In this document: positions 39,523 to 50,211 of the stretch, one piece after another
Numbering within the stretch: position 1 is the stretch's first letter
Layout of the letters: each line of letters starts with the position of its first letter
Virus record (IMG/VR): IMGVR_UViG_3300020438_000007
Span: 124,001-188,000 of that record
Reading direction: 5' to 3' (one strand)
Source: a virus
Length of the DNA stretch: 64,000 nt
Notes under the pieces: model-generated
What the model was told of the DNA's origin: nothing
The model's input: only the letters and a program-made list of their open reading frames with translations
Databases searched by the model: none
Position numbers and translations under genes: made by a program

Positions 39523-39695
39523 TAGAAAGAACTCTCCTCTAAACTAGTATCTCCCATAATGAGAGAGTACGACAAACTATCTGTATGATAAGACTTATAG
39601 ATCCTGCCCCAGATAATATCAAACTCCTCCTCATCTAGATCCTTAAACAAACACTTGTCATCATAGTATATGTGATACGTCTTTAATTGTTTCAA
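39522..39695 (-). CDS. Small conserved-type protein with TTG start, 57 aa
   Basis: Reads (M)KQLKTYHIYYDDKCLFKDLD then EEEFDIIWGRIYKSYHTDSL. I recall this type next to AbrB-like proteins in cyanomyoviruses. No ATG lies upstream in frame. The TTG at 39693-39695 overlaps the AbrB stop as TTGA, which mimics an ATGA coupling and supports the TTG start. Confidence 0.75.
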   Translation of the reverse strand: MKQLKTYHIYYDDKCLFKDLDEEEFDIIWGRIYKSYHTDSLSYSLIMGDTSLEESSF

Positions 39696-39835
39696 TTTCT
39701 TTTTACCAAGGTAAACGATCCATCGTCATTCGGAATCCATTCTAGCGTATCTCCTTCCTTCCAACCAGCCTCTTTGAGAAGTTCATCGGGGAGATTTAGA
39801 ATACCATCCTCATCAACTGTTAGATTATACTTCAT
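39692..39835 (-). CDS. AbrB/MazE-like (SpoVT-AbrB fold) protein, 47 aa
   Basis: Reads MKYNLTVDEDGILNLPDELL, KEAGWKEGDTLEWIPNDDGS, FTLVKRN. The DEDG-I-L-N-L-P-x-x-L-L, GWKEGD-x-L-x-W and final beta strand are the SpoVT/AbrB swapped-hairpin DNA-binding signature. Such proteins act as dimeric transcription regulators or antitoxins. No toxin partner is recognised beside it, so a phage regulator is more likely. It precedes the 57-aa gene with a TTGA overlap and follows the 94-aa gene by two bases. Confidence 0.85.
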   Translation of the reverse strand: MKYNLTVDEDGILNLPDELLKEAGWKEGDTLEWIPNDDGSFTLVKRN

Positions 39836-39837
39836 AT

Positions 39838-40122
39838 TCAATCAAAGGAGATTCCTTCCTCATCAGGGAGATTATGTAGTCTAGTCTCAACCCAGTGCTC
39901 CTTGTTATCAATCCTAGCTGCCTCAACATACCTCATGATATGTACATCCACTTGCTTATAGACATCATGCAAGTCAATATCCATCCGAATGTCATGTGCA
40001 ATCTCTGCTACCTGCTTCTCTGTCAAACAATGATCTGGATGAAGAAGATCACAACAGGGGATACGCTTCTCAATTAACTGATTAATGTTAATGCGAATTT
40101 CGTAATCGTTGTATACGGCCAT
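39838..40122 (-). CDS. Hypothetical protein, 94 aa
   Basis: Starts MAVYNDYEIRININQLIEKR, followed by HPDHCLTEKQVAEIAHDIRM and VDVHIMRYVEAARIDNKEHW, ending NLPDEEGISFD. It leads the AbrB operon and has a clear promoter upstream. It contains a helical segment but no recognised domain. Confidence 0.75.
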   Translation of the reverse strand: MAVYNDYEIRININQLIEKRIPCCDLLHPDHCLTEKQVAEIAHDIRMDIDLHDVYKQVDVHIMRYVEAARIDNKEHWVETRLHNLPDEEGISFD

Positions 40123-40615: not shown

Positions 40616-40957
40616 TTAAGCGACTGCCAGTGATACTCCGTTAACGAAATCGGATGTAGCACCAGCACTAGTCACGAACCAGGACCAGTTCTTTTGAAAG
40701 ACGCCATTCTGTCTGCCATCTGTGAACTCATTGATCAGAGCGTTTAAGCGTGATTTGGTTGTATTAGACTGCCAACCGCCATCGAAGAGGACCAGAGCAT
40801 CGTTAGTGATAGTGGCGATATGATTGCCATGTAGTTTAACTACTGCCTCCATTTGATTTGTATCAGAGTTGAAAGCATTCTCTACAGTAGTATTAGAAGA
40901 GCGGAAGTCCTGGCGTGAACGGATTGCGGTGTTCATTTGAGTTTCGATCTTACGCAT
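40616..40957 (-). CDS. Hypothetical protein, 113 aa
   Basis: Starts MRKIETQMNTAIRSRQDFRS. The middle reads SDTNQMEAVVKLHGNHIATI, then TNDALVLFDGGWQSNTTKSR and WSWFVTSAGATSDFVNGV. The LHGNHIATI and DGGW-x-S-x-T-T-K-S-R-L-N segments recall small phage proteins of unknown function. It is the outermost gene of the small-gene array on this side and has the full module upstream. Confidence 0.75.
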   Translation of the reverse strand: MRKIETQMNTAIRSRQDFRSSNTTVENAFNSDTNQMEAVVKLHGNHIATITNDALVLFDGGWQSNTTKSRLNALINEFTDGRQNGVFQKNWSWFVTSAGATSDFVNGVSLAVA

Positions 40958-40984
40958 GATTGTTTGTTTGTTTGTTATGTACTT

Positions 40985-41044
40985 ATTATAATAGCATGGC
41001 GGGTCGCTGTCAGCCAGCTCTGTGCCAGTTCTTCTAGTGGCACA
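40985..41044 (-). promoter_or_regulatory. Array promoter module: inverted repeat plus sigma70 promoter
   Basis: Minus strand: TGTGCCA-N10-TGGCACA (7-bp arms, 41021-41044), CTGACA, 17 bases, TATAAT (40985-40990), then an AAAC-repeat leader to the ATG at 40957. The same inverted repeat also lies upstream of a plus-strand promoter, so it is shared by divergent promoters. Confidence 0.75.
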
Positions 41045-41062
41045 CTGAGCGCTTCTGCTTGG

Positions 41063-41090
41063 TTGACATTCTCTGGCAGTGCCCTATAAT
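41063..41090 (+). promoter_or_regulatory. Consensus sigma70 promoter on the plus strand (P1)
   Basis: TTGACA, 16 bases, TATAAT, preceded by GG as in the array modules and by the shared inverted repeat at 41021-41044. No plus-strand ORF of useful length follows: the nearest ATG is followed after two codons by TAA. An untranslated RNA is therefore the likely product. Confidence 0.7.
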
Positions 41091-41445
41091 GGACCTATAA
41101 GAGATTCGGGGTAGGATCTATAAACTATTCGACACTGGTGCTGCTCCGCATTAATTGTTACAGCGTGTTACGGAATACCTATGGCACACTTGACGGGCCT
41201 TGTCTACCCTTATGTTGAGCAATGTGTCTTATGTGTGGTTATGAGGATTCGGGGCATTCTCGGTTGACTTATGAGCGTTTCCGTGTTATAATGCCCGCTT
41301 AGATGTCTATAAGATTCACCCTTATTTCGCTTTACTTAGTGATCTCTATACAAAACAGAAGTATATTTAATTAACCTTTTTTAATGATTCTCAAATGATA
41401 CTTAAAAGAGACAATTAGACCCACTAAGTGTAGCAAACTCTCTCC
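41091..41445. other. Gene-free region with possible non-coding RNA
   Basis: About 355 bases without a supported gene on either strand. Downstream of P1, GGGTAG at 41111 and CTACCC near 41206 can pair and enclose about 90 bases. The string GATTCGGGG occurs twice (near 41106 and 41236). Downstream of P2 the sequence is AT-rich and has no clear terminator. An RNA product is inference. Confidence 0.4.
41264..41292 (+). promoter_or_regulatory. Sigma70 promoter on the plus strand (P2)
   Basis: TTGACT, 17 bases, TATAAT on the plus strand, preceded by CGG. The first ATG downstream reaches a stop after two further codons. It points towards the 3' ends of minus-strand genes at 41446-41983, so antisense transcription is possible. 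Confidence 0.6.
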
Positions 41446-41640
41446 TTATAGTTCATCATTTAGTTCATATATCTTTCTCTGAATTTGCTTTAGTTTAGCA
41501 TAGATACTTCCCTGTCTATTTGCTACTGGTAGAGCATTGTAATTAGCAAGACTTTCTAATACTAACAACTTGATAAGTGCCATTTCCTCATTATCAAATA
41601 GAGGGGCACTTAGCATGAGGTTCGCTTCTTTAAGGGTCAT
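41446..41640 (-). CDS. Small hypothetical protein, 64 aa
   Basis: Starts MTLKEANLMLSAPLFDNEEM and continues ALIKLLVLESLANYNALPVA; mostly helical with the C-terminus KLKQIQRKIYELNDEL. ATG 41640 is chosen because it overlaps the upstream gene by 11 bases; a longer reading would lie mostly inside that gene. No family is recognised. Confidence 0.7.
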   Translation of the reverse strand: MTLKEANLMLSAPLFDNEEMALIKLLVLESLANYNALPVANRQGSIYAKLKQIQRKIYELNDEL

Positions 41641-41776
41641 ACGATTCAACCTCGATTTCGATAGCATAGTCTGGGTAAGTTGTCTCTTCTACATTATCAT
41701 TACTATCCGCTAATCTCTGTAGAAATGCTTCACTTGATTCCCTTACAGTTTCTTCGATTGTTATTACTTTATCCAT
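41630..41776 (-). CDS. Small acidic hypothetical protein, 48 aa
   Basis: Starts MDKVITIEETVRESSEAFLQ, acidic throughout, ending AIEIEVESYDP. The ATG follows directly after the TAG of the 68-aa gene, so the two are coupled. No family is recognised. Confidence 0.65.
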   Translation of the reverse strand: MDKVITIEETVRESSEAFLQRLADSNDNVEETTYPDYAIEIEVESYDP

Positions 41777-41983
41777 CTAGACTGCCTCCTTAGTGTTATA
41801 CTTACTAATGGCAATTTGTCCCAGATTCTCAACATATAGAGTCTTAACTCTCTCTCCATTCTTATCATTCAACTCTAGTAGTTTGTTCCAGTTCCAGTTA
41901 CTTGGCGAAACACAGTTTGCTTCACTTACTGTAAAGTCTAATGTAACACGATAGCGAGTTACTGATTGTGATTGAGAGTCCAT
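41777..41983 (-). CDS. Small hypothetical protein, 68 aa
   Basis: Starts MDSQSQSVTRYRVTLDFTVS, followed by NWNWNKLLELNDKNGERVKT and LYVENLGQIAISKY. It looks like an alternating strand-helix-strand fold, with an N-terminal strand similar to small host-takeover proteins. It leads a three-gene operon with a TTGACA promoter upstream. Confidence 0.7.
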   Translation of the reverse strand: MDSQSQSVTRYRVTLDFTVSEANCVSPSNWNWNKLLELNDKNGERVKTLYVENLGQIAISKYNTKEAV

Positions 41984-42010
41984 AAGAATGAGAGTGGTGG
42001 ATTACATTTA

Positions 42011-42039
42011 ATTCTACCAGATATTGCACTAATTGTCAA
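42011..42039 (-). promoter_or_regulatory. Sigma70 promoter for the 41446-41983 operon
   Basis: TTGACA, 17 bases, TAGAAT on the minus strand; the -10 lies 27 bases before the ATG at 41983. A complete inverted repeat is missing here. Confidence 0.65.
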
Positions 42040-42123
42040 CCAGTGGACGATATTTCCTCTACTACATTGTTATTTAGTGGGGAAACATTGACGATGATTG
42101 TGATTACTTAAGCACGCTTATAT

Positions 42124-42144
42124 AAAAAAATTCGGGCGTTCGCC
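42124..42144 (-). terminator. Possible short terminator in the gap 42040-42295
   Basis: On the minus strand GGCG-AA-CGCC is followed by CGAA and seven T. The stem is only 4 bp, so support is limited. Nothing else is seen in this gap besides a TATTTAG string (CTAAATA in minus orientation) near 42073 and AT-rich sequence. Confidence 0.4.
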
Positions 42145-42295
42145 TCTAAGGGACTAGGAACTATGTAATACTAATAAAGACGAATTACTCTTATTAGTTT
42201 ACAACTAGTGGTCTTACTAAGTGATTAACAAACAACTCACTTATGCCACTAAGTATAGCGATTAAAGACGATTAATCACTCATTAGAACTGTCAT

Positions 42296-42430
42296 TCACC
42301 TCTTTTTCTTTTTGGACTGTTTAACCATCTTGTTAAACTTCTTTGATTGACTGGGTGACATACCACAAAAATAGTTCAGTAGATTGCCTTCATACTGGTC
42401 AGCAATGTTTGAAAGTTCGTTATCCATCAT
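42296..42430 (-). CDS. Small hypothetical protein, 44 aa
   Basis: Starts MMDNELSNIADQYEGNLLNY and ends with a very basic tail (MVKQSKKKKR). ATG 42430 overlaps the preceding stop as ATGA. Last gene of a four-gene operon. A nucleic-acid-binding tail is possible but not shown. Confidence 0.65.
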   Translation of the reverse strand: MMDNELSNIADQYEGNLLNYFCGMSPSQSKKFNKMVKQSKKKKR

Positions 42431-42591
42431 TGTGCTAAACTCTCAAAACGCTTCATCGCAAGTTTAATTGCTTCCTCATCGATTTGATCAATAGTGACGA
42501 TTTGTCCTTTATAACGATAAAAGTTTTCAATTTCTTCTAGTGACTCCTCATAAAGTGTTTCAAGTAATTCATCATTAACAGCGCAACTCAT
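42427..42591 (-). CDS. Small acidic hypothetical protein, 54 aa
   Basis: Starts MSCAVNDELLETLYEESLEE, then IENFYRYKGQIVTIDQIDEE; acidic and helical. The ATG is directly after the TAA of the 44-aa gene upstream. No family is recognised. Confidence 0.7.
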   Translation of the reverse strand: MSCAVNDELLETLYEESLEEIENFYRYKGQIVTIDQIDEEAIKLAMKRFESLAQ

Positions 42592-42726
42592 TTAATTTTC
42601 CTCATAGATAGGGGCGAACAATTGATAGTAAAGGTCATTCATGAGACCGAATTCAAACGAAGTGGAAGCGTGCTCCTCATCAACACCTTCCCAACACTTC
42701 ATAATTTCAGTGTAAGTATCTTCCAT
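42592..42726 (-). CDS. Small acidic hypothetical protein, 44 aa
   Basis: Starts MEDTYTEIMKCWEGVDEEHA and ends LYYQLFAPIYEEN. It overlaps the 72-aa gene by TAATG. Acidic; no family is recognised. Confidence 0.65.
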   Translation of the reverse strand: MEDTYTEIMKCWEGVDEEHASTSFEFGLMNDLYYQLFAPIYEEN

Positions 42727-42944
42727 TATAGACACTCACTAGGTGCGAAACCGATAGAAGCGATAGCATTATCAAGCGCAACTCTATCAAGATCGGGATC
42801 ATCAAAATCAACGCCTGCAGCGTGATCTACACCCCACTCGAGCACCTCATCACAAAAATCTGAGAAATCTTTGCATACCCAAGCAACATTTTCAAAGTTT
42901 TCTACTTCTTTGATTCTGTTAATTAATCTGTCTGTTTTAGTCAT
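42726..42944 (-). CDS. Small acidic hypothetical protein, 72 aa
   Basis: Starts MTKTDRLINRIKEVENFENV, then FSDFCDEVLEWGVDHAAGVD, with a strongly acidic DFDDPDLDR. ATG 42944 is chosen over a longer reading because it follows the AAAC leader directly. First gene of a four-gene coupled operon; its acidity would suit a DNA mimic or a binding partner of a basic host protein, but this is speculation. Confidence 0.75.
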   Translation of the reverse strand: MTKTDRLINRIKEVENFENVAWVCKDFSDFCDEVLEWGVDHAAGVDFDDPDLDRVALDNAIASIGFAPSECL

Positions 42945-42971
42945 GTTTGTTTGTTTGTTTGTTATACTATT

Positions 42972-43030
42972 ATTATAGGGCATTGAGATTGAATATCAAC
43001 CCCACTTGTGCCAGTTTGATTAGTGGCACA
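42972..43030 (-). promoter_or_regulatory. Array promoter module (hairpin, TTGATA-16-TATAAT, AAAC leader)
   Basis: The inverted repeat TGTGCCA-N10-TGGCACA (43007-43030) begins directly after the stop codon of the 79-aa gene. Then TTGATA, 16 bases, TATAAT (42972-42977), and a leader of four AAAC units before ATG 42944. No Shine-Dalgarno sequence is seen. Confidence 0.8.
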
Positions 43031-43270
43031 CTATCGGTTGACTTTCTCCAAGTCACTTAGATAGCATTCCACTGTATGAAACTCATAGTCATTAATGTAA
43101 GTTTTAATAACAGCGTAGTCTCTACTTCTATCCAATAAAACTACATCACCTTCTAGATCATCATGTACGAGCGATTTAACACTAGTGCCTAGTTTGATGT
43201 TTGCTGTTACATCTTGACCAATTTTAAGAACATCTTTTTTACATAGTTCTTTGTATTCTTGAATTGTCAT
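43031..43270 (-). CDS. Small hypothetical protein, 79 aa
   Basis: Starts MTIQEYKELCKKDVLKIGQD. The second half reads HDDLEGDVVLLDRSRDYAVI, then TYINDYEFHTVECYLSDLEK, consistent with a small beta barrel after an N-terminal helix. ATG 43270 overlaps the preceding stop as TAATG. No family is recognised. Confidence 0.75.
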   Translation of the reverse strand: MTIQEYKELCKKDVLKIGQDVTANIKLGTSVKSLVHDDLEGDVVLLDRSRDYAVIKTYINDYEFHTVECYLSDLEKVNR

Positions 43271-43431
43271 TATAGTTGATTCTCCCATACTGTTGATTTA
43301 AAACGTCTCACTGCTTTGTCTAACAGTTTAATATCACCATCGCAGATATCAGCGGCAGACTCATCCTCTACATGAGAGAATGAATTGTTGATATCACCTA
43401 TGAGAGTGAGTAATGCTTCGTAATTAGTCAT
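43270..43431 (-). CDS. Small acidic hypothetical protein, 53 aa
   Basis: Starts MTNYEALLTLIGDINNSFSH, then VEDESAADICDGDIKLLDKA and RRFKSTVWENQL. Coupled to the 79-aa gene by TAATG. It is led by an AAAC leader and a TATAAT element. No family is recognised. Confidence 0.7.
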   Translation of the reverse strand: MTNYEALLTLIGDINNSFSHVEDESAADICDGDIKLLDKAVRRFKSTVWENQL

Positions 43432-43454
43432 AGTTGTTTGTTTGTTATACTACT

Positions 43455-43460
43455 ATTATA
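43455..43460 (-). promoter_or_regulatory. Array -10 element with AAAC leader (no clear -35)
   Basis: TATAAT is followed by the same TAGTATAACAAACAAAC leader as in other modules, before ATG 43431. The -35 position falls inside the 3' end of the 90-aa gene and is poor (ACTAAA at 16 bases). The GTGGCAC half-site lies upstream. Confidence 0.55.
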
Positions 43461-43470
43461 GTCGATCGAA

Positions 43471-43743
43471 CTAGAATTTAGTCCTTGATTGTGCCACTTT
43501 AGCGATTGTCCTACTATTCATAAACTGAGCAGGTCTCTTTGTATTACATGTAACAGCATAATTCATATCAAGTAAAATATCAATTTCTTCCGCCATGTTA
43601 AACACGTTGATTGCTTCATTTTCGACTGTCTTACCTTTATAGGTAACCACCTTCAATCTAGTAAGGTTACTAACTTTATTTTGTCCATCTTTGACTTCAT
43701 AATAGTCAACAACTGTGTTTAGGTTATCAGATTGAAATTGCAT
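43471..43743 (-). CDS. Small hypothetical protein, 90 aa
   Basis: Starts MQFQSDNLNTVVDYYEVKDG, then NLTRLKVVTYKGKTVENEAI and NVFNMAEEIDILLDMNYAVT, ending in a basic SRTIAKVAQSRTKF. A beta strand pair followed by helices. Single-gene unit of the array with a full module upstream. Confidence 0.75.
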   Translation of the reverse strand: MQFQSDNLNTVVDYYEVKDGQNKVSNLTRLKVVTYKGKTVENEAINVFNMAEEIDILLDMNYAVTCNTKRPAQFMNSRTIAKVAQSRTKF

Positions 43744-43768
43744 GATGTTCTTTGTTTGTTATACTATC

Positions 43769-43828
43769 ATTATAGGGCACTGATATGCAATAACAACACT
43801 TAGTGTGCCACTAATCAAACTGGCACAC
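43769..43828 (-). promoter_or_regulatory. Array promoter module (8-bp hairpin, TTGTTA-16-TATAAT)
   Basis: GTGTGCCA-N10-TGGCACAC (43803-43828), TTGTTA (43791-43796), 16 bases, TATAAT (43769-43774), then a leader with AACAAAC before ATG 43743. The arm and loop sequences are the mirror of the copy at 43007-43030. Confidence 0.8.
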
Positions 43829-43843
43829 TGTTGGTTGATTATA

Positions 43844-44113
43844 TCACCAATCTGGGGTAGGTTGCTTTGCCTGTGCTTTTTCGACCTTATCATAGTATTT
43901 GTCAACTGAACCCTCTAAGATTTCAAAGATAGTATCAACTTCATTTACATAATCATCAAATGGTTCTAATAATTGACCTTTAACTCTGTCCGCTCTGTAA
44001 TGCTCACTCTTTTTAACACTATCCTCAAGTGAGCATAGGATAACACCTATTTGTGCTTCGGTTAGTGTGACTTTGTATAGTGTATTATTCATGGATCCAG
44101 TTTCCTTGCTCAT
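43844..44113 (-). CDS. Small hypothetical protein, about 89 aa
   Basis: Read from ATG 44113 (MSKETGSMNNTLYKVTLTEA) because AAGGAG lies 6 bases before it. A later ATG at 44092 (MNNTLYKV) gives an 8-base overlap with the previous gene and is the alternative. The rest reads IGVILCSLEDSVKKSEHYRA, then FDDYVNEVDTIFEILEGSVD, helical and acidic. No family is recognised. Confidence 0.7.
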   Translation of the reverse strand: MSKETGSMNNTLYKVTLTEAQIGVILCSLEDSVKKSEHYRADRVKGQLLEPFDDYVNEVDTIFEILEGSVDKYYDKVEKAQAKQPTPDW

Positions 44114-44357
44114 CATAATCTCCTTCAGTAATAGATTCTAATCCATATGGATCACTATCAATAACGACTGATTGTAAACCTTTATAATCACGTCCCTGTA
44201 AACGATAGACTTCTTTCTGTTGTCTCATATCTCGATCGAGTCTATAACATAATTCTGCATTTAGTGCCATTAATTGACGTTTATCATCACTATGTTCAGA
44301 ATAATGAAAGTTCATACACTCTAACATGTATTCAAGTTCAATAATAGTAAATTTCAT
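44085..44357 (-). CDS. Small hypothetical protein, 90 aa
   Basis: Starts MKFTIIELEYMLECMNFHYS, then ELCYRLDRDMRQQKEVYRLQ and SDPYGLESITEGDYDEQGNW. Begins one base after the upstream stop region (TAAAATG). Helical first half, acidic end. No family is recognised. Confidence 0.75.
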   Translation of the reverse strand: MKFTIIELEYMLECMNFHYSEHSDDKRQLMALNAELCYRLDRDMRQQKEVYRLQGRDYKGLQSVVIDSDPYGLESITEGDYDEQGNWIHE

Positions 44358-44358
44358 T

Positions 44359-44535
44359 TTAGTAGTCTCCTCCATATATTTCTTCCATCAACTCATCATA
44401 AAGTTTCTTTAGTTTAGTTGCTGTAATACTCTTTGCTTTATCATTAATTTTCTCTTCTGTCTTATCATCAAAATTCTTAGCAAGATCTTTGATCTCTTTG
44501 ATGTAATAACGACAGTCTGATCTTGTTATGGTCAT
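44359..44535 (-). CDS. Small hypothetical protein, 58 aa
   Basis: Starts MTITRSDCRYYIKEIKDLAK, then NFDDKTEEKINDKAKSITAT and LYDELMEEIYGGDY; a lysine/glutamate-rich helical protein. First gene of a three-gene operon; the AAAC leader is directly upstream. No family is recognised. Confidence 0.7.
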   Translation of the reverse strand: MTITRSDCRYYIKEIKDLAKNFDDKTEEKINDKAKSITATKLKKLYDELMEEIYGGDY

Positions 44536-44560
44536 AGATTTGTTTGTTTGTTATACTACT

Positions 44561-44617
44561 ATTATAGTAGCATGAGATTCAATAACAACCACGACTATGC
44601 CAGTAATTAAACTGGCA
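44561..44617 (-). promoter_or_regulatory. Array promoter module (hairpin, TTGTTA-16-TATAAT)
   Basis: TGCCAG-N8-CTGGCA (44598-44617) overlapping the 3' end of the 56-aa gene, TTGTTA (44583-44588), 16 bases, TATAAT (44561-44566), then the AAC-repeat leader before ATG 44535. Confidence 0.75.
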
Positions 44618-44777
44618 CATCATAGGTTGATTTATTTTTAAGAACATGCCAATATTCTTCATAAGATAGAGTTTCTTCTTTATCTGTATCGGTATTGAGT
44701 ACAATATCAAAAGGATAAAAAGCATAATATCTCATATGATCATCAACATACTCTTTGATTTGTTTATACTTAGTCAT
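44607..44777 (-). CDS. Small hypothetical protein, 56 aa
   Basis: Starts MTKYKQIKEYVDDHMRYYAF, then YPFDIVLNTDTDKEETLSYE. ATG 44777 overlaps the preceding gene by 8 bases (ATGACTAA). Last gene of its operon; its end carries one arm of the next module. No family is recognised. Confidence 0.7.
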   Translation of the reverse strand: MTKYKQIKEYVDDHMRYYAFYPFDIVLNTDTDKEETLSYEEYWHVLKNKSTYDVPV

Positions 44778-45003
44778 CAGAACACCCCTTGATAACGCTT
44801 TGTATAGTATCGGTAAAATCCTCATCAAAGAATTCTTCGATCTCTACCATAGCATCATTAAATGAATGGTCATCTATCCATTTTTGCATATCTTGAGCAA
44901 CATATACAACTAAATCCTCGACTGACATTCCATCAACGACTCGATCGATATAACGCTCTTTAAGAGCATTGAATTGTTTGTCTGTTAGTTTTGTTTTGTT
45001 CAT
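44770..45003 (-). CDS. Small acidic hypothetical protein, 77 aa
   Basis: Starts MNKTKLTDKQFNALKERYID and shares the LTDxxFNxLxE pattern with the proteins at 47312-47497 and 49277-49468. Continues RVVDGMSVEDLVVYVAQDMQ and a strongly acidic VEIEEFFDEDFTDT. The common N-terminal motif suggests one paralogous family in the array. Confidence 0.75.
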   Translation of the reverse strand: MNKTKLTDKQFNALKERYIDRVVDGMSVEDLVVYVAQDMQKWIDDHSFNDAMVEIEEFFDEDFTDTIQSVIKGCSDD

Positions 45004-45007
45004 AGTG

Positions 45008-45211
45008 TTAATCATGGATGATAGAATCAAAAATTGTGTCATCATTAGGGAACTCATTTACCTTAGCAATTGCTGCTGCGGCAACCATGTTCCAGACCTT
45101 TTGTCCTGACATTTTCTGATCTTGACAATGGAAAGCAACTGTATCCTCTAAGAGTTCAAGCACTTCCATTGACTCATTAAAGAGTTTTTCGTATTCTACA
45201 GGGTTCATCAT
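45008..45211 (-). CDS. Small hypothetical protein, 67 aa
   Basis: Starts MMNPVEYEKLFNESMEVLEL, then GQKVWNMVAAAAIAKVNEFP; helical with a short alanine-rich segment. Overlaps the 77-aa gene upstream by ATGA. ATG 45208 is an equal alternative start. No family is recognised. Confidence 0.75.
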   Translation of the reverse strand: MMNPVEYEKLFNESMEVLELLEDTVAFHCQDQKMSGQKVWNMVAAAAIAKVNEFPNDDTIFDSIIHD

Positions 45212-45441
45212 ACAGTCCTCACGAATAGTTTTGAAATGCGATCGTCAATTTCATTGACTCTCTCATAAACTGATCTGCCTTCGATCAATTCATCTTCTTG
45301 CATACTGTCATCATCATAACAACGATAATCTTCAAGTGCATTTGAGATAGTGTCCCATTCTCCATCAGTGAAGAATGAGCGAATTGTTTGCAGTTGGTCA
45401 AAAGAGAAGTCTCTAACCAGTGATCCTTGACGATTCATCAT
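45208..45441 (-). CDS. Small acidic hypothetical protein, 77 aa
   Basis: Starts MMNRQGSLVRDFSFDQLQTI, then SNALEDYRCYDDDSMQEDEL and VNEIDDRISKLFVRTV. First gene of a four-gene operon, with the AAAC leader directly before the ATG. No family is recognised. Confidence 0.75.
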   Translation of the reverse strand: MMNRQGSLVRDFSFDQLQTIRSFFTDGEWDTISNALEDYRCYDDDSMQEDELIEGRSVYERVNEIDDRISKLFVRTV

Positions 45442-45467
45442 AAAGTTTGTTTGTTTGTTATGTACTT

Positions 45468-45522
45468 ATTATAGGGCAGTGACTCAAAGAATCAACCACC
45501 CTTGTGCCAGTTTGTCTACTGG
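45468..45522 (-). promoter_or_regulatory. Array promoter module (TTGATT-16-TATAAT)
   Basis: Inverted repeat CCAGT-N6-ACTGG (45507-45522) overlapping the end of the 100-aa gene, GGTGG before TTGATT (45490-45495), 16 bases, TATAAT (45468-45473), then an AAAC-repeat leader before ATG 45441. Confidence 0.75.
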
Positions 45523-45818
45523 TCTAATGCCCATAGACTTCCACCATCAAAATCGGTAGGGTATCCATAGTTTCTAACTAACATATCTCTAACTCTTTCT
45601 CTGTCAAGTGAATCACCATCGCCCCAAGTGAATCTATCATTATCCAAATCAGATATCACTTGTAAGTAATCTTCCGTAGCAAGTGTAATGTCACCTTTAG
45701 TAACATTCATTTGATAAAGTGCATCATCAGCACCATAGAATGAAAAGACATAATCAATAAACTCATCAAGTTGATTGATGTCATATTTTGATTTTCCGAT
45801 AGCAACGATAGAAGTCAT
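45516..45818 (-). CDS. Hypothetical protein, 100 aa
   Basis: Starts MTSIVAIGKSKYDINQLDEF, then FSFYGADDALYQMNVTKGDI and VISDLDNDRFTWGDGDSLDR, ending YGYPTDFDGGSLWALDQ. Acidic; single-gene unit of the array. No family is recognised. Confidence 0.75.
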   Translation of the reverse strand: MTSIVAIGKSKYDINQLDEFIDYVFSFYGADDALYQMNVTKGDITLATEDYLQVISDLDNDRFTWGDGDSLDRERVRDMLVRNYGYPTDFDGGSLWALDQ

Positions 45819-45843
45819 AAACCTGTTTGTTTGTTATACTATC

Positions 45844-45871
45844 ATTATAGGGCAGTGATATTGAATATCAA
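45844..45871 (-). promoter_or_regulatory. Array promoter (TTGATA-16-TATAAT)
   Basis: GGCGG before TTGATA (45866-45871), 16 bases ending CTGCCC, TATAAT (45844-45849), then AACAAACAAAC before ATG 45818. Only the GTGGCAC half of the inverted repeat is present. Confidence 0.75.
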
Positions 45872-45890
45872 CCGCCCTTGTGCCACTTAT

Positions 45891-46085
45891 TCAACTGTCA
45901 CTAGGTACAACCATTTGTGGGATTCCATCTTGAATATCCGCTAAGTGTCCTAGTTTATGACGAATTTTCCTAAAATTAACGTCAAAATCATCGCTCAACT
46001 TGTCAGTAACCCTACAAGGCGTACCTAAGATAAGTTGAAGCAGAGCGTCACACTCTGCTGCGGTTAGATTTGGGTCATTCATCAT
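45891..46085 (-). CDS. Small hypothetical protein, 64 aa
   Basis: Starts MMNDPNLTAAECDALLQLIL, then KLSDDFDVNFRKIRHKLGHL, ending GIPQMVVPSDS. Overlaps the 160-aa gene by ATGA and is coupled to it. The LTxxECDxLLxLI opening again resembles the LTDxxFNxL pattern of neighbours. No family is recognised. Confidence 0.75.
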   Translation of the reverse strand: MMNDPNLTAAECDALLQLILGTPCRVTDKLSDDFDVNFRKIRHKLGHLADIQDGIPQMVVPSDS

Positions 46086-46564
46086 GCTACCTCGTATAAT
46101 TCTTTTGGATAATCAGCAGGGATAGTTTCTTTGATAGGTTTGAATGTATCGTTGAAATCTTTAGTCTCTTTGTTCCAAAAACTGAGACCATAACACTCTA
46201 GAGTTCCGTCAAGTTCCTTGACGTAAGCATACTCTCCACAACACTTGTCAGTATCCTCAAAGAAGTGAGAGATAGTTTTGTGAAGTTTAGGAGCATTATC
46301 ATCCATAGACTCACCTCGCTCTGTATAATAGCAAGGTTTGTACTCTCTACCTTCTAACTCTTCGGGTTCCTTAAGATCCCAACCTGAGTTAGTATAGCAA
46401 CAACTCATGTTACCACCATCAATAAGTTCAGCGAATTGGTCTCTAGTATCATAGTGCTTGTTGAGAGTAACTCCCAACCACTGTGGATAACCATCCCAGT
46501 GATGATATACTGAAAGGATTGAACCATCAGCAAGGCGAAGTCCGATTCTTGAATTTGTTGACAT
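46082..46564 (-). CDS. Phage SRIGI-type protein, 160 aa
   Basis: Starts MSTNSRIGLRLADGSILSVY, then HHWDGYPQWLGVTLNKHYDT. This S-R-I-G-x-x-x-x-x-DGSI-x-SxYxHWDGYP opening is a family found in many phages, of unknown function. Later segments are GWDLKEPEELEGREYKPCYY and DKCCGEYAYVKELDGTLECY, with several cysteines. It is the largest protein of the small-gene array apart from the ligase-like one and leads a two-gene operon. Confidence 0.85.
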   Translation of the reverse strand: MSTNSRIGLRLADGSILSVYHHWDGYPQWLGVTLNKHYDTRDQFAELIDGGNMSCCYTNSGWDLKEPEELEGREYKPCYYTERGESMDDNAPKLHKTISHFFEDTDKCCGEYAYVKELDGTLECYGLSFWNKETKDFNDTFKPIKETIPADYPKELYEVA

Positions 46565-46591
46565 AGTGTGTTGTTTGTTTGTTATGTACTT

Positions 46592-46652
46592 ATTATAGTG
46601 TGGTGGGAATGGAAATCAACCACCTGTGTGCCACTAATCTAAGTGTCACAGG
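46592..46652 (-). promoter_or_regulatory. Array promoter module (TTGATT-16-TATAAT)
   Basis: Inverted repeat CCTGTG...CACAGG with an inner CACT/AGTG pair (46623-46652), AGGTGG before TTGATT (46614-46619), 16 bases, TATAAT (46592-46597), then the AACAAAC leader before ATG 46564. Overlaps the end of the 85-aa gene. Confidence 0.75.
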
Positions 46653-46903
46653 TCTGCTGGGTCTGAAGGCATCACCTGTGGTACGATCATCAGTTGTAAC
46701 CTATCAACGACAGCGGGCACTAGATAACTACCATCAAAAGAGCAAGTTCCGTCATCATTCTTGTTACCTAACTTCTCACAAATTGCATCACTAACTAACT
46801 CATATAAAACGTTATGTTTCCTTGGGTTCTGATAAATGTGTTCAATAACTTCCAATACCAAAGCATCAGCAAGTTTGTTTAATGTCTCTTTAGATAGAGT
46901 CAT
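46646..46903 (-). CDS. Hypothetical protein, 85 aa
   Basis: Starts MTLSKETLNKLADALVLEVI, then YQNPRKHNVLYELVSDAICE and DGTCSFDGSYLVPAVVDRLQ. It has a strong ribosome site (AAGGAGG, 6 bases before ATG), unlike the leader-driven genes, because it is an internal operon gene. No family is recognised. Confidence 0.75.
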   Translation of the reverse strand: MTLSKETLNKLADALVLEVIEHIYQNPRKHNVLYELVSDAICEKLGNKNDDGTCSFDGSYLVPAVVDRLQLMIVPQVMPSDPADL

Positions 46904-46928
46904 TTAGTCCTCCTTTTTGTTTGTGTGG

Positions 46929-47315
46929 TCATTTTCCAATTCCCATAGGGTCATCTGATTCGCTCTCTAATTGAGAGACAATTGCACTATCAATTTTGTC
47001 TAGTTCTTCTTGATGAAACTTTCTTGTCCATCCATCATTGTATGATGAATTTGCATTTACCAAATGGTGTGCTCGGTTTCCAATCAAAACATCATTTTCT
47101 TCTCTATAATATTCATAAACAAGTTGTTGATATATGTCAAACAACTCTTGCAATACTACTCCTTCGAGATCAGTCCATGAACCAACGTAGTCAACTTGTG
47201 TCTCATCATATCCGCCCTTCTTGAAACTAGGAGCACTAAAAAAGTGCATATCTGTGTCTATCATGAAGTGATGACCATACTTCTCACTCTCGTAAGTTTT
47301 TACATATGTCCTCAT
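46929..47315 (-). CDS. Hypothetical protein, 128 aa
   Basis: Starts MRTYVKTYESEKYGHHFMID, then DMHFFSAPSFKKGGYDETQV and VLQELFDIYQQLVYEYYREE, ending DDPMGIGK. Overlaps the 61-aa gene by 4 bases. No family is recognised. Confidence 0.75.
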   Translation of the reverse strand: MRTYVKTYESEKYGHHFMIDTDMHFFSAPSFKKGGYDETQVDYVGSWTDLEGVVLQELFDIYQQLVYEYYREENDVLIGNRAHHLVNANSSYNDGWTRKFHQEELDKIDSAIVSQLESESDDPMGIGK

Positions 47316-47497
47316 TTTGTACCTCCATCAACTGCTATCATTTTGTGGTATATGTCATATGAAATATAATCTCTAATATCATTTGAGAGATCAGGGTCAT
47401 GCTTTGTTTCTACTCTCTCTTTGAGTGAGAAATAAGTCGGTTCAAATATCTCAAAGAGTCTATTGAACTCGGTATCTGTTAGGTTTAATGTTTTCAT
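47312..47497 (-). CDS. Small hypothetical protein with LTDxEFNxL motif, 61 aa
   Basis: Starts MKTLNLTDTEFNRLFEIFEP, then SLKERVETKHDPDLSNDIRD. Shares the LTDxxFNxL opening with the proteins at 44770-45003 and 49277-49468. Overlaps neighbours on both sides by 4 bases. Confidence 0.75.
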   Translation of the reverse strand: MKTLNLTDTEFNRLFEIFEPTYFSLKERVETKHDPDLSNDIRDYISYDIYHKMIAVDGGTK

Positions 47498-47709
47498 AGG
47501 TCAATAGTATGCTCAAGTTTTAGACGTAATAGTGAGTCAACAACCGATTCCATAGTTGTCTTAGAGTAACCAACTGCATAGGGATAATCCTTCTTGTAGT
47601 CAGCGGCACTCTGTTCCGAAGCACCATAACATACCTCAATTGATTCATTGAGTGACATAATTATTGCATCAATAACGTAGGTCGGGATTTCAAGTTTGGG
47701 ATCTGGCAT
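47494..47709 (-). CDS. Small hypothetical protein, 71 aa
   Basis: Starts MPDPKLEIPTYVIDAIIMSL, then NESIEVCYGASEQSAADYKK and TTMESVVDSLLRLKLEHTID; two helical parts. Has AAGG before the ATG, and leads a four-gene operon. No family is recognised. Confidence 0.75.
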   Translation of the reverse strand: MPDPKLEIPTYVIDAIIMSLNESIEVCYGASEQSAADYKKDYPYAVGYSKTTMESVVDSLLRLKLEHTIDL

Positions 47710-47730
47710 TGAATTACCTTATATGTTTAT

Positions 47731-47788
47731 ATTATAGTATAATAAAATAGGATTGCAACCACTCATGTGACATTTATTCAACTGGCAC
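47731..47788 (-). promoter_or_regulatory. Array promoter module (TTGCAA-16-TATAAT), without AAAC leader
   Basis: Imperfect repeat GTGCCA-N10-TGTCAC (47767-47788), GAGTGG before TTGCAA (47753-47758), 16 bases, TATAAT (47731-47736). The leader here is AT-rich and ends with AAGG close to the ATG at 47709. Confidence 0.75.
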
Positions 47789-47802
47789 ACCCGATGAAGT
47801 GA

Positions 47803-48774
47803 TTAAGAGTTGGTAATCACTTCATCTGGTACGCCCCATGTCTTTTTCATGTTAAAGTTTGCATAACTGAAGCGTTGACGTTTGACAAGTTTGTATGTAC
47901 CATATTTGTTAGTCATCACATAACCCTCATGTTCATAGGGTTGACCATCAATAAGACACTCTACATCTTGTGACGTAGTGATGCCTTGCATCAATAGTTC
48001 TTTAACTTCGATAATCATATTGTACAAGTGGAATAGGTTTTTTGAATATCCTGTATCACTTGCAAGTTGATCTGGGTTAAGTTTCTTGCCTTCCCTCACA
48101 TAACTGTTGACGATTACCTTTAGTGTTTTCCCTTCCTTGAGCGTGGGGAACTCGGTGAATCGTACCAACGTGCGAATAAGAATGAGCAAAAATTCGATCT
48201 TTGCATTTAAGCGGTTTGATCGGGCGCCCATACTAGCATGAGTATCAACTTGATAGTGTCTCAAGTTGGTACAGTCGAGATTCCCATAGTTATTAGTCCT
48301 ATAATGGAATACTGCATCTAATTCTTGAATAGTTGCACCAACATATTCAGTATGAGTCGCTACAACCACTGATTGTTTGATTACTTTATCAAATTTGTAG
48401 GTGATTGTGTTAGGTTTGTAAGTATCATTACCACCATAACCAATGAAGTCGCACTGATATACCCCATGCTCTGTGGGCAGGGTCTCAAGACAAGTGTGTA
48501 GAATACTTGCTACGTTTGGGATGTTCCCATGATTAGTTTCAATGTCATCATGAGTATAGTTTATCTTGATCTTTTTCTTATTGAATACTGATTTAGTACC
48601 AACAAAGAATCTACCATTCTCAGGGTTGACTCCATAGACGACAGCGGGGGCACCATCATATTTGACTGATATTTGATTTCTCTTGCTCTTCAGAAACTTG
48701 ATCACATCAACAGCACCCTCCTTACCAAGGGTCAGGATGCTGTCCTCTGGGTGTTCTAGGTGTTTGTTCTTCAT
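47803..48774 (-). CDS. Ligase-like nucleotidyltransferase (DUF6267-type), 323 aa
   Basis: Read from ATG 48774 (MKNKHLEHPEDSILTLGKEG). The nucleotidyltransferase motifs of ATP-dependent ligases and capping enzymes are present in order: motif I VKYDGAPAVVYG with candidate adenylated lysine K38 (K-x-D-G at 38-41), FFVGTKSVFNKKKIK, motif III GVYQCDFIGYGG, motif IV HEGYVMTN and motif V YKLVKRQRF. The combination KYDGAPA with a following FNK segment matches DUF6267, a phage family related to DNA/RNA ligases. Substrate (RNA, DNA or other) is not decided by the sequence. The -10 ends six bases before the ATG, so a leaderless mRNA is likely. Confidence 0.85.
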   Translation of the reverse strand: MKNKHLEHPEDSILTLGKEGAVDVIKFLKSKRNQISVKYDGAPAVVYGVNPENGRFFVGTKSVFNKKKIKINYTHDDIETNHGNIPNVASILHTCLETLPTEHGVYQCDFIGYGGNDTYKPNTITYKFDKVIKQSVVVATHTEYVGATIQELDAVFHYRTNNYGNLDCTNLRHYQVDTHASMGARSNRLNAKIEFLLILIRTLVRFTEFPTLKEGKTLKVIVNSYVREGKKLNPDQLASDTGYSKNLFHLYNMIIEVKELLMQGITTSQDVECLIDGQPYEHEGYVMTNKYGTYKLVKRQRFSYANFNMKKTWGVPDEVITNS

Positions 48775-48780
48775 ACTACC

Positions 48781-48808
48781 ATTATACACCATGCCAACAG
48801 GAAAACAA
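48781..48808 (-). promoter_or_regulatory. Promoter at leaderless distance from the ligase-like gene
   Basis: GGG before TTGTTT (48803-48808), 16 bases, TATAAT (48781-48786), then GGTAGT and ATG 48774. Transcription normally starts 6-8 bases after the -10, which is the ATG itself. Confidence 0.7.
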
Positions 48809-48834
48809 CCCTCTCTGTACCAGTTTGTAGACTG

Positions 48835-49143
48835 TCACACAAAGAATTGTTCTAGTGGGGTCAAGTTAAGTTTCATTGCAGTATAGGGCGAAGTGTCCTC
48901 TATTGAGACTTCTTTACCTATTCTATTTGAATTGATGGGGGCGTAGTAAGCGTGCGTACTGCTTCTCTTTGTTCTCTTATGCTTGACGAATCCCCAGATA
49001 CAACGAGATTCATCACCATCATTATAGAGAAACCTATAGTCAGATACAGTCCAGATAGCATCCACATTAGTTTTAAATTGTATCGACTCATAGCGGTATC
49101 CTTTAGGTGGTTGGTGAATAAAATCGTCTGGAAGTGCGGTCAC
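48835..49143 (-). CDS. Hypothetical protein with GTG start, 102 aa
   Basis: Reads (M)TALPDDFIHQPPKGYRYESI from GTG 49143, then WTVSDYRFLYNDGDESRCIW and GFVKHKRTKRSSTHAYYAPI. No upstream ATG in frame is seen. It follows a long structured leader, so its expression may be regulated. No family is recognised. Confidence 0.7.
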   Translation of the reverse strand: MTALPDDFIHQPPKGYRYESIQFKTNVDAIWTVSDYRFLYNDGDESRCIWGFVKHKRTKRSSTHAYYAPINSNRIGKEVSIEDTSPYTAMKLNLTPLEQFFV

Positions 49144-49163
49144 AATTTATCAGTTAAAAGATT

Positions 49164-49257
49164 GTGGGAGAGATTCGACTTAAAGAGCATTTTCCACTGG
49201 GGTCGCTCACTCTTGCCTCCCACATTTATATAATAATCCATTGGGATAGGATTACAA
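49164..49257 (-). promoter_or_regulatory. Promoter with structured leader before the 102-aa gene
   Basis: TTGTAA (49252-49257), 16 bases, TATTAT (49230-49235); then a leader of about 80 bases in which GTGGGAG (49217-49223 in minus orientation) can pair with CTCCCAC (49164-49170), enclosing smaller AAGAG/CTCTT pairing. An imperfect array-type inverted repeat lies upstream at 49264-49289. Confidence 0.5.
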
Positions 49258-49276
49258 CCAGTAGTGTGCCAGTTTA

Positions 49277-49468
49277 TTATATGTCACATTCGGGGTTGAG
49301 AAATTGTCTATTTCGCTTTACCTTAGTAGTTGAAATATCAATTAGGTCTTCTAACTCTTCAATAGAATTAGATAGGTTATCATCATCTTTCTCTTCAGAA
49401 TAGAAAAATAATGCTTCACTTAACAAGTTGAATTGCTTGTCAGTTAGTGTTACATCGATCTTATACAT
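49277..49468 (-). CDS. Small acidic hypothetical protein with LTDKQFNLL motif, 63 aa
   Basis: Starts MYKIDVTLTDKQFNLLSEAL, then FFYSEEKDDDNLSNSIEELE. LTDKQFN is the same opening as in the 77-aa protein at 44770-45003 (LTDKQFNALKE). It starts one base after the stop of the oxygenase gene. Probably a small array paralogue. Confidence 0.75.
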   Translation of the reverse strand: MYKIDVTLTDKQFNLLSEALFFYSEEKDDDNLSNSIEELEDLIDISTTKVKRNRQFLNPECDI

Positions 49469-50081: not shown

Positions 50082-50124
50082 TTTCTGTCTTGAGAACCCT
50101 TGCCACCACTAGACCAAAGACCTG

Positions 50125-50189
50125 TTTTTTCCATAATTCTGTCCGTCAGGTGTGTTTGGTCATCCATCCCACTCTCGTTATGGAAAAAA
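50125..50189. repeat. 12-bp perfect inverted repeat with T/A-run flanks
   Basis: TTTTTTCCATAA (50125-50136) is an exact reverse complement of TTATGGAAAAAA (50178-50189), around a 41-base loop. It lies in a 130-base gap between the oxygenase start at 50081 and the end of the 56-aa gene at 50212. Either strand ends in a T-run, so it could be a bidirectional terminator or a structured RNA. Confidence 0.6.
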
Positions 50190-50211
50190 GACTAAGTGTC
50201 ATCCTAGAAGT

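Follow-up and report, generated by a model that had tools for sequence, protein, structure and literature searches.

A candidate non-coding transcription unit in a Kyanoviridae-like cyanophage and an apparently undescribed family of small viral RNAs

The gap at 40958-41445 of the window is probably an orphan non-coding transcription unit, and the RNA from its upstream promoter, P1, is likely to be an early, trans-acting structured small RNA. Comparison of related sequences makes it very probable that this RNA represents a real family of small viral RNAs, apparently not described before and predicted to be expressed early. The window is the whole 64,000-nucleotide stretch analysed here, corresponding to positions 124001-188000 of a 230,739-base viral contig. 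Its source is a 231-kb Kyanoviridae-like cyanophage, and the nearest named relative of the contig is Synechococcus phage S-SSM7 (Kyanoviridae, Lipsvirus). The gap lies between the Kyano_Gp96 gene and three small minus-strand genes (Table 1). An earlier note on this DNA had proposed a non-coding RNA at this place, a claim now strongly supported by conserved promoters and by a covarying hairpin that follows P1 in many viruses.

Table 1. Features in and beside the gap, in window coordinates.
Feature	Position	Strand	Remark
Kyano_Gp96 gene (PF23790)	40616-40957	-	gap-flanking gene
Divergent Kyano_Gp96 promoter	40985-41013	-	CTGACA-17-TATAAT; leader AAGTACATAACAAACAAACAAACAATC-ATG
24-bp palindrome TGTGCCAGTTCTTCTAGTGGCACA	41021-41044		candidate operator, between the divergent Gp96 promoter and P1
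P1 promoter	41063-41090	+	TTGACA-16-TATAAT; 12/12 consensus match
5' domain of predicted P1 RNA (family core)	41097-41165	+	start inferred from -10 box
Hairpin S1, 5' arm GAUUC	41103-41107	+	covariation
Hairpin S1, loop GGGGUA	41108-41113	+	near-invariant (family NRGGUM)
Hairpin S1, 3' arm GGAUC	41114-41118	+	covariation
Unpaired block UUCGACAC	41128-41135	+	conserved (family UCGnCAC)
UGCU of conserved CUGCY block	41142-41145	+	possible pseudoknot with loop GGUA (41110-41113)
P2 promoter	41264-41292	+	TTGACT-17-TATAAT; 11/12 consensus match
Predicted P2 transcript start GCCCGCTTAGATGTCTATAAGATT	41293-41316	+	83% identical in relatives
AT-rich box ending in ACCTTTTTT	41361-41386	+	79% identical in relatives
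Three small genes	41446-41667, 41630-41776, 41777-41983	-	other gap flank

Both promoters lie exactly at the positions given in the earlier note. Under first-order Markov simulation, sites matching at least 11 of the 12 consensus positions are expected 0.007-0.008 times per 401 nt on one strand, compared with the two observed, and none of 3000 simulations placed two such sites in 401 nt. Across 11 distinct relatives, the -35 and -10 boxes are 97% and 100% identical for P1 and 94% and 100% for P2, whereas the spacers are only 54% and 64% identical; the stretch separating the two units stands at 48%. Boxes that stay constant while their spacers drift indicate that both promoters are under selection. 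Both are conserved within a clade of about 20 contigs, the isolate S-SSM7 among them, and the P1 motif occurs in 18 of the 19 contigs carrying the P2 motif, the remaining one (L280) ending inside the P1 element. Promoter loss among close relatives, named in advance as a result that would count against the proposal, was looked for, and the promoters were found to be kept. With their hexamers, 16-18 spacing and spacer drift, P1 and P2 have the features of sigma-70 early promoters, resembling the host-type early promoters predicted, alongside NtcA promoters, in cyanomyoviruses (Sullivan et al. 2010, PMC3037559). Reading the sequence by eye revealed no NtcA site (GTA-N8-TAC) upstream of either. 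The flanking genes at 40616-40957 and 41446-41983 are all on the minus strand, as had been remarked, and the observation that no ORF follows either promoter agrees with the finding of no conserved ORF after P1 or P2.

Conservation is also high after P1, where the 40 nt after the inferred start (41097-41136) are 94% identical in relatives. The family layout consists of a 5-bp stem, S1, with a GGGGUA-type loop, followed by UUCGnCAC and then CUGC. Among 20 homologues, 100% of S1 cells are paired, with changes on both sides at three of the five pairs (17 cells), a result matched by none of 500 shuffles. A larger set of 89 distinct copies from 84 contigs was selected on the 3' motif TCGNCACNNNNCCTGCNATNAAATAWT alone, without regard to pairing, and an NRGGTM loop lies within 40 nt upstream of this motif in 88 of them. 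All five S1 positions are paired in 85 of these 88 loop-bearing copies, a figure slightly biased toward pairing because the best-pairing loop was taken where several matched, and 33 different stems are represented. Over the same 88 copies, 97.7% of S1 cells are paired, against 59.3% with shuffled arms (maximum 65.2%). In alignment A4, 100% of S1 cells are paired and each of the five pairs shows double changes; the 88-copy count is the fairer figure, since the A4 rows were picked for complete stems. Stem variants include GAGCG/CGCUC, GUUCG/CGAAC and GAUCU/AGAUC in marine copies, and GGGGA/UCCCU, GGUGC/GCACU and CCGGC/GCCGG in other contigs.

Other pairings fare differently from S1. The earlier note had reported a GATTCGGGG repeat about 130 bases apart and a possible GGGTAG/CTACCC stem; the repeat is present (41103 and 41246) at a spacing of 143, and both stem halves occur (41109 and 41204), but the stem is unsupported because CTACCC is not kept in relatives, the covarying stem being another one. 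A long stem predicted by RNAalifold, CGGGGUAG/CUGCUCCG, was rejected, as it lacks covariation, is broken in some relatives and competes with S1. Folded as a single sequence, the window RNA is no more stable than shuffled versions (z -0.5). A pseudoknot between the loop GGUA and the tail UGCY is suggestive only: this pairing is possible in 93% of cells in alignment A2 and 85% in A4, and neither alignment contains a compensatory change at the loop-tail pairs. The CUGCY tail is lost in two diverged relatives (L017 and L028).

Homology searches extend the family well beyond this clade. Distant copies were gathered by stepwise loosening of the search pattern, and a covariance model built from the first set of copies, R1, also matched P-SSM2 and several contigs fetched for the palindromic operator alone, providing independent support for the RNA family. 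A second model, R2, built from A4 with the window's clade left out, gives a modest match to the window at 41100-41162 (24.5 bits, E=0.006), the only convincing one in the 231-kb genome. R2 E-values are 9e-7 for S-SSM7, 3e-8 for P-SSM2 and 1e-7 to 3e-2 for relatives, all of these, like those of R1, being rough owing to short calibration. The window element carries the features that define the family, namely S1, NRGGUM, UCGnCAC and CUGC. Four of 18 isolates contain R2 matches, P-SSM2, P-SSM5, S-SSM7 and S-SRM01 (two copies), and these have genomes above 230 kb, while none of the 14 unmatched isolates exceeds about 216 kb. The 84 contigs are viral fragments from both sea and freshwater, and copies can be multiple and dispersed, with four in L141 (6056-8229) and up to five in L149 (120-6549), each over 2-6 kb of one contig. 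Host assignment comes from the isolates because most contigs are metagenomic, and a cyanophage marker (one of three) was found in the stretch examined at only 29 of the 84 loci. Rfam 15 (4227 families) gave no match to the window at the gathering threshold, none on 40950-41460 with E up to 10 and none on four homologue loci with E up to 1; the open-licence full texts searched likewise contained nothing matching a cyanophage pseudoknot RNA.

The palindrome between the two divergent promoters is a candidate early operator that we take, from its distribution, to be phage-specific. It has the consensus TGTGCCAST-N6-ASTGGCACA, and upstream of P1 it reads TGTGCCA-N10-TGGCACA. About ten copies occur in the 231-kb genome, all within the 8.3 kb at 165021-173288 (window 41021-49288), and the reversed-sequence control of the same genome has none. 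At no fewer than eight minus-strand early promoters in the window, the palindrome precedes the -35 box by exactly 7 bp, a fixed placement that, like its sequence, distinguishes it from the GTA-N8-TAC of cyanomyovirus NtcA promoters. The gap to P1 is 17-18 bp, and only 7 bp in L017 and L028, so that the two spacings differ by about one helical turn; in relatives, a separate copy stands 7 bp from P2. The operator-promoter module is found in at least 120 viral stretches, with clusters in P-SSM2, P-RSM1, S-SSM5 and S-SSM7 and chance levels in Syn33 and Ma-LMM01. A host regulon was rejected as its origin, since searching a bacterial genome collection for the operator plus TTG returned just six scattered non-cyanobacterial matches. 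Nothing matching a palindromic early operator of cyanophages was found in the open-licence full texts searched.

Two candidates for the operator's binding protein were also discarded. Kyano_Gp96 is absent from P-SSM2, which has about ten operators, and a MazE/AbrB-like protein encoded at 39692-39841 has no match in the operator-bearing S-SSM7 and P-SSM2. The latter, a 49-aa predicted DNA-binding protein from the minus strand of the early region (PF04014, E 1e-6), has relatives in Syn9, S-SSM5 and others. Separately, most of the eight operator-spaced minus-strand promoters have an unusual leader, TAACAAACAAACAAAC, immediately before the ATG. Examples at early genes (40958-40984, 42942-42971 and 44536-44560) contain no Shine-Dalgarno-like sequence, and this leader is also found before Gp96 in many other cyanophages.

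Operator and RNA are associated across the family. Of the 89 RNA copies, 63 have a palindrome in the 130 nt upstream, compared with 82 of 890 random stretches; the palindrome-to-loop distance is 51-62 nt, and TAnnnT follows at promoter distance after 35 of 41 good palindromes. Conserved neighbours of the RNA copies are on the opposite strand, making the orientation remarked on in the earlier note a general property of the family. The exception is one homing-endonuclease-like family, mostly on the same strand; families listed as same-strand neighbours resemble antisense shadows cast by real genes. An mRNA leader or riboswitch was considered, and inspection of the window and seven homologous loci revealed no co-directional gene downstream. 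In other viruses, the opposite strand some 280 nt downstream of the RNA carries a gene for a conserved acidic protein, DLDE-rich and about 50 aa long (L281, L287, L286, L279 and L299 2228-2383, the last being PSSM2_098), with coding DNA that resembles a TCTCGTCGAGATC repeat array.

The P2 unit is less well defined and lies outside the family core. Its product has no supported structure, and a small protein from its transcript (ATGTCTATA...) was rejected because neither lengths nor sequences are conserved. The ACCTTTTTT box forms a terminator-like hairpin in most relatives and is weak or lost in the window, and no terminator separates P1 from P2 in the window's clade. Family-wide, terminator-like hairpins occur downstream of 17 of 85 RNA copies, versus 2 of 85 shuffled ones. 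Elsewhere in the window, about 113 nt on the minus strand (50085-50198) are 92-96% identical in 75 cyanophage records, among them Syn33, S-RIM12 and ACG-2014a/b/g, and are mostly unannotated. This stretch contains an inverted repeat without mismatches (TTTTTTCCATAA/TTATGGAAAAAA) as well as a possible ORF of 29 aa, and is a candidate non-coding RNA or microprotein.

Several other readings of the gap deserve consideration. Transcripts from P1 and P2 might enter 41446-41983, as the earlier note proposed, and regulate this operon by duplex formation or transcriptional interference. The orientation opposite to all neighbours, the lack of a strong terminator in the window's clade and the downstream acidic protein gene of other viruses are in its favor, but the covarying part lies wholly within the gap and is common to viruses with different neighbours, the operon is not a constant partner, and before reaching the opposite genes the transcripts would meet the ACCTTTTTT box, which forms a hairpin in most relatives. 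Such cis-antisense action is therefore unlikely. Its model is CfrI of S-PM2, which is summarized in a review as an antisense RNA complementary to psbA and the homing endonuclease gene adjacent to it (Millard et al. 2010, cited in PMC2984593). Both are non-coding cyanophage RNAs on the strand opposite to their neighbours, yet the P1 RNA sits in a gene-free gap, carries a covarying hairpin and is found at varying loci. Its core, beside Kyano_Gp96, overlaps no annotated gene, and S-PM2 has no R2 match. The P1 RNA also resembles wcaG, PhotoRC-II, glnA, manA and abiF in being a conserved structured RNA carried by cyanophages (PMC2864571, PMC9964418, PMC12197685); unlike these Rfam-type RNAs, several of which are cis-regulatory leaders, it has neither an Rfam match nor a co-directional gene downstream.

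A transcription-primed replication origin would also suit two co-directional promoters in a gene-free gap. The T7 primary origin and T4 oriF combine one or more promoters with a following AT-rich stretch in such a gap; here, 41301-41400 after P2 is 74% AT, and the same order of elements recurs in P-SSM2 and other lineages. This idea is improbable, however, given that the GC skew of P-SSM2 and S-SSM7 does not turn where the element lies, some contigs have 4-5 dispersed copies, the long AT-rich region is missing from several copies, and stem covariation favors an RNA over a DNA element. A special case of trans action, a decoy or antitoxin-like RNA directed against host defence of the type III toxin-antitoxin or CRISPR type, seems similarly doubtful. 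Type III antitoxins such as ToxI and its relatives are small pseudoknot RNAs with a short stem; some are multi-copy, and they lie as tandem repeats ahead of a toxin gene of the ToxN type. The small size, possible pseudoknot, multiple copies and early-type promoter of the P1 RNA recall them, but its pseudoknot is only hypothetical, it has no Rfam match or tandem copies, and no toxin-like family was seen by eye among its conserved neighbours. Least probable is a DNA-level element, either a protein-binding site or a late promoter, despite the high primary-sequence conservation and a TATAAAC similar to the late box TATAAATA. Each of the five stem pairs shows compensatory changes, the 6-nt loop is preserved and the direction relative to the promoter is fixed, all of which argue against it, and a late promoter in the P1 block was rejected because S-SSM7 loses the TATAAA box (GGTAAAC) and keeps the stem.

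Under the preferred reading of a trans-acting RNA, one palindromic operator would serve both P1, as an early promoter of the sigma-70 type, and the divergent promoter of Gp96. The first ~65 nt of the P1 RNA would form the conserved domain, with the 5-bp hairpin and its GGGGUA-type loop followed by the fixed unpaired blocks UCGnCAC and CCUGCnAUnAAAUA, possibly closed by the loop-tail pseudoknot. P2, about 200 bp downstream, would start a second or shorter transcript. From sea to freshwater, the stem letters vary freely with pairing kept, while the loop and tail letters are near-constant, suggesting a scaffold that presents fixed residues to a conserved partner. Since the neighbours differ, the RNA would be neither a single-gene guide nor a cis-antisense regulator. 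We infer that it acts early, most likely through contact of its invariant loop and tail with a conserved protein or RNA of the host or phage; trans action itself is evenly balanced on present evidence.

The hosts of such cyanophages are Synechococcus and Prochlorococcus. How these are taken over early in infection is poorly understood, and in 2010 a review still called the mechanism of early and middle transcription unclear (PMC2984593). The family occurs in the laboratory isolates P-SSM2, P-SSM5, S-SSM7 and S-SRM01, where annotation missed it, and can be checked in existing infection RNA-seq data. Moreover, a candidate operator common to early genes points to a putative DNA-binding regulator. 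More tentatively, these may be widespread, possibly pseudoknotted and often multi-copy early cyanophage small RNAs under a phage-specific operator, aiding host takeover through a conserved host protein or RNA. If so, operator and RNA together would constitute an unrecognised layer of cyanophage early regulation.
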